Assembly: GCA_016187935.1 (NCBI GenBank)
Contig: JACPIU010000010.1
Location: 62,001-126,000 of the forward strand
Reading direction: 5' to 3'
DNA from: Bdellovibrio sp.
Lineage (GTDB): Bacteria > Bdellovibrionota > Bacteriovoracia > Bacteriovoracales > Bacteriovoracaceae
Length of the DNA stretch: 64,000 bases
Shown: positions 38,889-41,403 of the stretch, in pieces
How positions within the stretch are numbered: position 1 is the stretch's first letter
Layout of the letters: the number at the start of each line of letters is the position of its first letter
The notes under the pieces: generated by a model
The model's input: only the letters and a program-made list of their open reading frames with translations
Told to the model about the DNA's origin: nothing
Databases searched by the model: none
Translations under genes and position numbers: made by a program

Positions 38889-38897
38889 GTGGAAGAT

Positions 38898-40850
38898 ATG
38901 CTTGAGCTTAAAAACATCCATAAAAAGTATCAGATGGGGGAGAATATCATCTATGCCCTACGTGACATTTCGCTCACAATTGAAGATGGCGATTTTATCG
39001 CCATCATGGGGGCATCAGGCTCAGGCAAATCAACGCTTATGCATGTTCTGGGTTTGCTTGATACGCCCGACGAAGGGTCGTATACCATTAATGGACAAGA
39101 AGTTTCAAAGTTGACAGAAGATGAGTTGGCGGTTTTTCGACGTGAAATGATTGGATTCATTTTTCAGCAATCTAATCTTCTTCCCCGCTTAACCGCTGTG
39201 GAAAACGTTGCTTTGCCGCTGCTTTATTCGAAGGGGAAAATCGATATTGAGTACGCTGGCAAACTTTTAGAACGTGTAGGGTTAGCAGAACGATTAGTTC
39301 ATCATCCCAATGAAATGTCGGGAGGACAGCAGCAACGAGTTGCTATAGCTCGTTCACTGGTAAATCAACCACTCATGATTTTTGCCGATGAACCAACGGG
39401 GAACCTCGATTCGGTGAACGGAAAGGAAATCATCGACATTTTGAAAAAATTAAATCACACAGGAATTACGGTAATCATTGTGACTCATGAGAATGAAATC
39501 GGCAGGCAGGCCAAACGTTTGATCAAAATGCACGATGGCGCTGTTGTCTCTGATGAGCGTCTCATATCTATACCAGTAACAGAAAAGGAGCATACAAATA
39601 AACGCTCTTTGTCCGTGAATTTTCAAATTGCCTACTTCATTCAGCATTTTTATCAAGGGGTAAAAACGCTGACCGTTAACAAGGTTCGCACCGGCCTTTC
39701 CATGCTGGGAATATTAATTGGAGTTGGTGCGGTGGTCACCATGATTGCACTTGGCAGAGGTGCCAGAAAAGCAATTGAGGAACAACTCTCTTCTCTTGGA
39801 ACTAATCTTCTCATTCTGCGTGCCGGAGCCGTTCGCGGCATGGGTGGTGTGATCGTTCAGGCCGGAACAACGACAAGACTGACGGCGGAAGATGCCAGTG
39901 CGATTATGAAAGAAATCCCAGAAGTGAAAGAAGCGGTTCCGAATGTTACAGGGCGAGCTCAAATTACATACTTAAATAAAAATTGGAATACTTCAGTTGT
40001 GGGCGTCTCTCCATCTTATGCCAGGATGCACGCAGATACGCCTACGGTTGGCCGTTTTTTTACTGACGAGGAGAATAGGAAGAGACAACGTGTTGCCATT
40101 GTAGGGGCGAGCATAGTTCGTGAAGTCTTCAGCGCTCAAAATCCGATCGGCAGTATGATCAAAATAAACAAAGTAAGCTTCCACGTTATTGGTGTTCTTC
40201 CGGAAAAAGGGGCAAGTACCTGGCATGATCAGGATGATCGCATTCTCATTCCTGTGAATACGGCCATGCGTCGTCTGTATGGGAAAGATTATGTGGATAA
40301 CATTGACATTGAAGTTACTTCGGCAGAACTGACATCACAAGTTCAAGATCAAACATTTGAACTCATGTTATCACGTCACCGCATTCCCGTTTCTCAAAAA
40401 CAAGATGCCTTTCAGATCAGAAACTTGGCGGATATTCAAGCGGCCTTGTCAGCGAGTACTCAAGTTATGACCCTGCTCCTCTCCATCATCGCGGCTATCT
40501 CACTTATAGTGGGTGGTATTGGTATCATGAATATTATGTTAGTCTCCGTTACTGAGCGCACGCGGGAGATTGGATTGCGGAAGGCGGTTGGTGCTAGAAG
40601 ATTGGATATTCTCTCACAGTTTATTGTCGAATCCGTGGTCATCAGCGCGGTTGGCGGTATTTTTGGAATTGTTTTGTCCTGGCTTGCCACAATCCTTATA
40701 TCGCAAATCGCCGGTTGGGCCACTTCCATCACACTCGGCTCCGTGCTTTTGTCTTTTTTGTTTTCGGCATCCATCGGAATCATTTTCGGATTATATCCGG
40801 CACGTAAAGCTTCGCGCCTGGCACCCATCGATGCCTTAAGACATGAATAA
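38898..40850 (+). CDS. MacB-type ABC transporter (ATPase-permease fusion)
   Basis: The 650-residue protein combines an N-terminal ABC ATPase with a MacB-type permease with four membrane segments and a large periplasmic domain (C-terminal GIGIMNIMLVSVTERTREIG). The ATPase shows Walker A ASGSGKST near 41, MSGGQQQR and FADEPTGNLD. MacB drives export of peptides, macrolides or other large ligands together with MacA and TolC. The ATG at 38898 has GGTGGAAG nearby; a GTG at 38889 would add three residues. A 123-bp MITE lies just beyond the stop. Confidence 0.92.
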   Translation: MLELKNIHKKYQMGENIIYALRDISLTIEDGDFIAIMGASGSGKSTLMHVLGLLDTPDEGSYTINGQEVSKLTEDELAVFRREMIGFIFQQSNLLPRLTAVENVALPLLYSKGKIDIEYAGKLLERVGLAERLVHHPNEMSGGQQQRVAIARSLVNQPLMIFADEPTGNLDSVNGKEIIDILKKLNHTGITVIIVTHENEIGRQAKRLIKMHDGAVVSDERLISIPVTEKEHTNKRSLSVNFQIAYFIQHFYQGVKTLTVNKVRTGLSMLGILIGVGAVVTMIALGRGARKAIEEQLSSLGTNLLILRAGAVRGMGGVIVQAGTTTRLTAEDASAIMKEIPEVKEAVPNVTGRAQITYLNKNWNTSVVGVSPSYARMHADTPTVGRFFTDEENRKRQRVAIVGASIVREVFSAQNPIGSMIKINKVSFHVIGVLPEKGASTWHDQDDRILIPVNTAMRRLYGKDYVDNIDIEVTSAELTSQVQDQTFELMLSRHRIPVSQKQDAFQIRNLADIQAALSASTQVMTLLLSIIAAISLIVGGIGIMNIMLVSVTERTREIGLRKAVGARRLDILSQFIVESVVISAVGGIFGIVLSWLATILISQIAGWATSITLGSVLLSFLFSASIGIIFGLYPARKASRLAPIDALRHE

Positions 40851-40863
40851 AGAGATTGATTTA

Positions 40864-40986
40864 GAGCCTATCCCAAAACCCTCATCTGCGTCGTTGCTCA
40901 ATCATTCGCTTGTGCGGCGTACACTCTGTGTACGCCTCCGCGCTCCCTCAATCGCGCCTAGCATCTGAAGGTTTTGGGATAGGCTC
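40864..40986. mobile_element. MITE-like element, 17-bp perfect terminal IRs, TTA target duplication
   Basis: The ends GAGCCTATCCCAAAACC and GGTTTTGGGATAGGCTC are perfect inverted repeats, and the inside is also partly palindromic (GGCGTACACTCTGTGTACGCC). The element is flanked by TTA on both sides (40861-40863 and 40987-40989). A 3-bp TNA duplication fits insertion by IS5-family (IS1031-like) transposases. It is too small to encode a transposase, so it would move only in trans. The long hairpin could also end macB transcription. Confidence 0.8.
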
Positions 40987-41403
40987 TTAGGTTGGGCCCT
41001 CAAGAATTTCTTTGAGTTTTTCCAAATCCTTCTTGATCCATTCGGCATCCTCTTTAAATTTGTCATCATCCATATCAGGTTGACGATAGAGTGTGAAAAC
41101 GACTTCACAACCATCGTTGTTACGAAGAACTCGCATTGGATTATAAAATGAAATTCCGGATTCCAAAGTTACATTATGATCGACGACACCATATCGATTT
41201 TTTTCAGCAAACTTAATTTTTATCTTTCCCATTGGAGAATTGGCGACCCATTCTCCATTAACGTTATCAATTGAGCTGCCTAATCCAGATGCCCATCGGG
41301 GAAGATTGCTTGGATTTGAAACATAGTCGTAAACTTTATTTTGAGGACAATTTATTGAGATACCGATATTTTTGCTTTCTGAAGGTTTCAAGGTTTTCTC
41401 CAA
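40987..41403 (-). CDS. SRPBCC-fold protein
   Basis: The 138-residue product has the START/Bet v1-like layout: N-terminal strand ISINCPQNKVYDYVSNPSNLPRWA, strands around WVANSPMGKIKIKFAEKN and YRQPDMDDDKFKEDAEWIKKDLEKLKEIL as the long C-terminal helix. These proteins bind small lipophilic molecules. The stop codon TAA is part of the TTA target duplication of the adjoining MITE. It lies 14 bases downstream of the SnoaL-like gene. Confidence 0.75.
   Translation of the reverse strand: MEKTLKPSESKNIGISINCPQNKVYDYVSNPSNLPRWASGLGSSIDNVNGEWVANSPMGKIKIKFAEKNRYGVVDHNVTLESGISFYNPMRVLRNNDGCEVVFTLYRQPDMDDDKFKEDAEWIKKDLEKLKEILEGPT

Follow-up and report, generated by a model that had tools for sequence, protein, structure and literature searches.

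Introduction

The described repeats that come closest to the element reported here are the ERIC/IRU/RU-1 sequences of enterobacteria. ERIC is described in PMC2229807 and PMC10969869 as a 127-bp intergenic sequence located at the 3' ends of genes, whose transcripts form stem-loops; it affects mRNA through RNase E, and its orientation has a role. The description in PMC2229807 adds TA at the ends, 7-bp inverted ends, and a target duplication. REPs, according to the account in PMC3733652, are high-copy extragenic palindromes of many phyla, and another polar repeat, which has an intrastrand triplex motif, is reported in PMC4666352 to occur without strand bias.

Here we describe a 123-bp element of a Bdellovibrio sp. 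genome, found in a stretch of 64,000 nucleotides from one contig (the window), and interpret it as one branch of a structured, strand-polar repeat family that crosses phyla. The family resembles ERIC/IRU/RU-1 (∼127 bp) in being an intergenic imperfect palindrome with a central hairpin that lies at gene 3' ends; ERIC is transcribed, and the likeness of the family to it appears to consist in size, position, and predicted fold. REP and REPIN sequences (GTAG and CGTC superfamilies) are likewise high-copy extragenic palindromes of many phyla by the account in PMC3733652, but they are described there as 20 to 40 bp long with a terminal unpaired tag, whereas members of our family are ∼123 bp long with a 20-bp variable basal stem. 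The size and anatomy of the element do not fit the tagged palindrome of the REP/RAYT kind.

Anatomy of the element

The element lies between two convergent genes. The features of the region are as follows.

38889..40850, plus strand: MacB-type ABC transporter gene, the left convergent gene (ORF; Pfam MacB_PCD, ABC_tran, and FtsX)
40861..40863, no strand: left target-site duplication, TTA (read from the sequence, copies compared)
40864..40880, plus strand: left terminal inverted repeat, perfect, 17 bp (motif match)
40864..40885, plus strand: left arm, 22 nt, with a boundary common to the wider family (arm-pairing analysis)
40886..40966, plus strand: conserved core, 81 bp, CTGCGTCGTTGCTC ... GCGCCTAGCATCT (family alignment)
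40916..40936, minus strand: central hairpin, folding more stably on the minus strand (palindrome and folding)
40967..40986, plus strand: right arm, 20 nt, complementary to the left arm (pairing)
40970..40986, minus strand: right terminal inverted repeat, 17 bp (motif match)
40987..40989, minus strand: right target-site duplication, TTA, which is the TAA stop of the minus-strand gene (ORF read)
40987..41403, minus strand: SRPBCC-like gene, the right convergent gene (ORF; Polyketide_cyc2 match below the Pfam cut-off)

The 123 bp from 40864 to 40986 are flanked on both sides by TTA in the window sequence. An earlier note had described perfect 17-bp ends and an internal palindrome, and both are as described: the 17-mer GAGCCTATCCCAAAACC is exact at the two ends, and the halves of the palindrome (40916-40924 and 40928-40936) are complementary at 9 of 9 positions. 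The sole further match to the 17-mer in the window has three mismatches; in shuffled windows, the number of matches averaged 0.13 and did not reach three in any of 100 shuffles. For the plus strand of the stretch 40865-40987, the folding energy is -57.4 kcal/mol as RNA (z -9.4 versus shuffles) and -32.9 as DNA (z -8.6); RNA folding of the exact element gives -60.2 for the plus strand and -67.5 for the minus strand. The Rfam 15 covariance models identified no family at the element; they returned two sub-threshold miRNA matches, as well as one T-box outside the element.

The right-hand gene scores 25.4 bits against Pfam Polyketide_cyc2, just under the cut-off of 27.4; we take this to be an SRPBCC-type family. 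Its minus-strand ORF (41403-40987) is terminated by the right-hand TTA, read as TAA, confirming the earlier claim that one duplicate of the triplet is the stop codon of this gene. Since the folded strand is the sense strand for the SRPBCC message in the window, an effect at the RNA level, if any, should first fall there.

Copies in the host genome and their insertion sites

A search of the host genome (4.40 Mb, 48 contigs) returned 15 matches to the element at E ≤ 0.01: 11 near-full copies (95 to 100%), two matches to the core only (L012 and L013, 88%), and two fragments. A direct 3-bp duplication flanks every one of the 11 full copies; read in the direction of the element, it is TTA in four and TAA in seven. 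Thus, the genome search proposed earlier did find copies, and they support the proposal of MITE-like mobility with a TNA-type duplication: the element is MITE-like in being short, with inverted ends, a target duplication, and several copies. The expectation of an empty site in relatives was also borne out, because the element is missing between macB and the SRPBCC gene in G002, a genome of the same genus, whose sequence aligns to the joined flanks with 75% identity over 500 positions.

The two core-only matches (1479-1603 in both L012 and L013, on contigs C37 and C24 of the host genome) have the same core between different ends (CAGGCC...), with 4-bp direct repeats ATAG and CTAG. A single genome therefore holds one core with two end types. 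At another locus (L014, 1499-1530), a lone family-A end is followed by unrelated sequence; this is probably a decayed copy.

By a simple ORF caller, 10 of the 11 host copies lie between convergent genes. When flanks were joined and ORFs of at least 100 codons were considered, the duplicated triplet proved to be an in-frame stop in nine copies; as for the remaining two, the triplet of L005 shares two bases with a stop, and that of L004 is one base beyond a TGA. Noncoding TTA/TAA sites of the window served as a control: of 315 such sites, 38 fall within convergent gaps, and 37 lie no more than 1 base from a stop. Against this background, and given heuristic gene calls, the chance of 10 in 11 is about 6e-9 for convergent placement and 5e-9 for placement at a stop. 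Of the 38 sites in convergent gaps of the window, 17 are themselves located at a stop; most of the stop-codon placement is therefore explained by survival in short gaps.

Placement of this kind also bears on a proposal that the hairpin, placed between convergent genes, has been selected there as an intrinsic terminator of transcription in both directions; the earlier note had suggested that it may end macB transcription. The hairpin is very stable, and convergent placement is found both in the host (10 of 11 copies) and in Bdellovibrio-type genomes (one genus of the phylum, so called by inference), where 13 of 20 loci are convergent and the stop of the plus-strand gene mostly abuts the left arm. 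However, the sequence pattern of an intrinsic terminator, a GC-rich stem followed by a U run, is not found at the element: the U tract is missing, and a terminator scan called nothing there. Many copies elsewhere, moreover, lie between co-directional genes (64 of the 83 without an overlapping ORF). The suggested end of macB transcription was thus not borne out, we rejected the intrinsic terminator reading at the element, and selection as a terminator strikes us as very unlikely.

Candidate transposase

Among genomes of the phylum, 44 of 368 hold the 17-bp end together with TNA (≤1 mismatch). In a genome of the same family (G109), two such ends frame an 866-bp element with a TAA duplication, whose two frames match DUF4096 and DDE_Tnp_1; of its matches to NCBIfam IS5_3, the first piece is below the cut-off and the second is above it. 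An IS5-family element with the same ends had been predicted, and this prediction holds for the relative but not for the host genome, where a search by end found no IS with matching ends; three DDE_Tnp_1 matches are present there. The earlier note had named the lack of both further copies and a matching IS as the outcome that would count against it; in the host, copies are present, and no matching IS was found.

Like IS5-family MITEs (IS5_3/DUF4096 plus DDE), the element has identical 17-bp ends and a TNA duplication, and it was presumably moved by an IS5-type enzyme. It could then be an ordinary MITE, that is, an internal-deletion derivative of an IS5-type element in which the core is a meaningless leftover: the perfect ends, the 3-bp duplications, the near-identical copies, and the existence of an IS with the same ends all agree with this. 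The core, though, does not come from that IS, since the 866-bp element has only the 17-bp end in common with ours; the same core occurs under other arms in the host (L012 and L013) and in several phyla, and the family shows strong covariation (see below). We consider an origin by internal deletion alone to be unlikely.

Hairpins of 175 to 182 bp with the same end occur in genomes G285, G093, G250, G028, and G240. Their end is of the GAGCCTATCC type and their central hairpin is similar, but neither core box is present; a 3-bp duplication was found in five of the seven that were read fully. Hairpins of up to 267 bp (range, 175 to 267 bp) with the GAGCCTATCC end were seen at loci L246 to L252 and L152 in other genomes of the phylum, and G093 has 71 ends of this type in a single genome. 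In 23 loci of other genomes with 36 ends, an in-frame stop coincides with the duplicated triplet at 8 ends; stop-codon placement is therefore stronger in the host genome.

A wider family with variable, complementary arms

The pattern used to search for the wider family was built from the two core boxes; because box letters are thereby fixed, information comes from the arms and the middle alone. It found 76 stretches in named genomes. Carriers of the core include Deltaproteobacteria MAGs, Sporomusa, Pelosinus, and other Negativicutes/Bacillota, as well as Pseudomonas, Nitrospira, Pseudodesulfovibrio, a Patescibacteria MAG, and others. Arm sequences vary between copies but are complementary within each copy: own arms pair at 12.8, versus 3.8 for crossed arms (81 unique pairs from 90 copies). 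Pairing drops to background past 22 positions on the left and 20 on the right, limits that coincide with the ends of the window element. At this arm boundary, the 74 copies outside the host genome (87 copies with full flanks were compared) showed no 3-bp duplication clearly above the control.

Model R1 matches 94 of 368 genomes of the phylum (E ≤ 1e-5, strict filters), and there are at least 105 copies where they are most numerous, among genomes chosen because they hold the family. Two patterns found no core in viral contigs, and plasmid records contained no 123-bp element. A full-text search of the open-access literature, six core and end strings included, found no paper describing this repeat family. 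Eight Pseudomonas genomes (L050, L052, L063, L066, L087, L091, L096, and L114) have a single core-bearing copy each, apparently at one orthologous site, with arm changes of the wobble type only. Near another copy (L175, 1171-1369) is a T-box leader match (E 2e-14, below the gathering score).

The direction of copies with respect to flanking genes varies: G368 has 10 in the arrangement '<E<' and 1 in '>E>', while G383 has 0 and 8, respectively. These opposite outcomes led us to reject a fixed direction relative to transcription, and variation by genome is not what a simple cis-RNA role predicts.

Among E. coli sequences, R1 also finds four ERIC loci, which it matches from end to end, in register, and on the corresponding strand, with nonsignificant scores (7.8 to 8.4 bits; E 0.2 to 1.8); the four copies are closely alike. 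ERIC differs from the family in being without the CTGCGTYGTTGC and GCGCCTAGCATCT boxes as such. A search of 369 genomes for ERIC-like sequences found a single genome with two partial matches; the R1 score of one of them, L239, is 7.5 bits. At E. coli loci L240, L242, and L245 (427-429), the ERIC match falls one base short of the ybhI stop codon, a placement like that of the host copies. In our reading, the family comprises ERIC/IRU-like structured repeats that are absent from Rfam 15, and the host genome has an IS5-mobilized branch of it.

Covariation and the folded strand

Covariation was assessed in alignment A2, which uses 73 of the 90 copies. It omits eight of the eleven family-A rows of our own element, six of the eight near-identical Pseudomonas rows, L115 (which has N letters), the second L074 copy, and L108, whose right arm is unpaired; the omission of L108 slightly favors pairing. 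In these 73 copies, 334 cells are changed on both sides, versus 112 after shuffling, and the covariation score is 0.421, versus 0.145 for shuffled and ≤0.127 for slid alignments. Mismatches on the plus strand are A.C in 130 cases and G.T in 25, an excess that places the wobbles on the minus strand. Shuffling gave 103 A.C and 36 G.T, so the imbalance partly reflects base composition and fixed inner-arm mismatches; the outer arm alone has 33 A.C versus 17 G.T, and its shuffles have 85 versus 83. The minus strand is more stable as RNA in 91% of 87 copies and as DNA in 85 of 87. From our own reading of the sequence, the two CAGATG boxes of the minus strand may pair via a tandem G.A step.

At orthologous sites, we also compared 52 pairs drawn from 148 flanked copies, with the proviso that pairs share loci and three are distorted by indels, so that totals are not independent. 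Changes in both arms occurred together: three double changes distinguish L162 from L222, four distinguish L220 from L224, and one distinguishes L221 from L230. Such joint changes can arise without selection, by template switching, as argued for RNA stems in PMC8794818: replication would copy one arm onto the other, leaving a structure that is unselected. The double changes at L220/L224 and L162/L222 do lie close together, as this process would have it, but mismatches of the wobble type are retained on one strand, and where only one side changed at orthologous sites, there are 59 A.C versus 4 G.T (pair counts, again non-independent). We therefore think template switching a rather unlikely source of the pairing. 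Orthologous sites retain the pairing in place, and a constraint on the fold itself, as RNA or as single-stranded DNA, is therefore probable.

Direction and replication

In ten complete Bdellovibrio-type genomes, 140 of the 150 copies listed (from 191 matches) point with the replication fork, with the origin placed at dnaA and the terminus assumed to be opposite; since loci within one genus are partly orthologous, these copies are not all independent. G165 is the exception, with two copies with and five against replication. For comparison, 150 of 259 genes (58%) are leading in a sample from G147, where the GC skew of the leading strand is positive in 20 of 20 stretches. In the host genome, the surrounding 15 to 20 kb has positive GC skew in the direction of the element for 13 of 13 copies, and genes there are mixed. 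The 17-bp ends are identical on both sides and so cannot by themselves set direction. Contig C1 of G147 has tandem copies ∼130 bp apart in one direction (for example, at 768902-769574, 813335-813601, and 961272-961538).

Replication polarity is not universal: Sporomusa KB1 shows none (8 copies with and 9 against, by our own tally, which includes partial copies and one site near a skew switch), nor do loci of 8 kb taken from other genomes (31 of 67). These results bear on whether the element is a single-strand mobile hairpin (HUH, REP/IS200-like) that inserts at replication forks. The strand-specific fold, the one replication direction of nearly all listed Bdellovibrio-type copies, and the target duplication not being seen outside the host genome would all suit such a hairpin. 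In the host, however, the 11 full copies are all duplicated although polarity is 13 of 13, and Sporomusa is without polarity; we judge this mode of movement to be improbable.

Proposed mechanism and significance

The explanation that we favor, with moderate confidence, is that the element is a nonautonomous mobile copy of a structured intergenic repeat, mobilized by an IS5-type enzyme, whose fold is functional. At the DNA level, the arms would supply the inverted ends on which an IS5-type transposase (DUF4096 plus DDE, its product spread over two frames) acts, inserting at TTA/TAA and duplicating the triplet; the ends and duplications are there to be seen, and an enzyme of this kind would have acted here. 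Copies would survive where insertion is harmless, and the places where we find them, stop codons of closely spaced convergent genes, would be such sites because the duplicated triplet preserves the stop codon; selection is the presumed agent.

The 81-bp core would belong to an old family spread over several phyla, whose arms vary yet keep pairing, and the minus strand, 5'-CAGATGCTAGGCGC...GCAACRACGCAGATG-3', is predicted to fold into a rod of ∼120 nt. This fold would act in RNA or in single-stranded DNA, and it may mainly serve messages as a structure at their 3' ends or between cistrons, a role reported for ERIC. Copies in the reverse direction would, in Bdellovibrio-type genomes, be purged or not inserted at all, because the stable strand would then sit on the lagging-strand template.

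A broader proposal is one that we advance only tentatively, as it is more doubtful than probable: that a strand-polar repeat family extending across phyla has gone undescribed; that its basal stem drifts by compensatory change under structural constraint; that a stem that comes to match the ends of a resident IS is mobilized, different transposases thus moving one core (3-bp TTA and 4-bp NTAG repeats in the host genome); and that its direction is tied to the replication fork in Bdellovibrionota.

As described in the earlier note, the element is a sound but ordinary MITE; the noteworthy part is the family, with its drifting complementary arms, its one folded strand, and, in one group, its replication-tied direction. 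MITE logic expects conserved ends and a drifting middle, and the family presents the opposite: core boxes are held in common, while the ends drift yet remain complementary, which points to a fold kept for a reason. A direction tied to replication, set against the 58% of genes that are leading in the G147 sample, makes it testable whether polarity is set at insertion or results from purging. If the family is as described here, a kind of repeat known from enterobacteria would have counterparts in Bdellovibrionota, Negativicutes, Nitrospira, Pseudomonas, and Patescibacteria.
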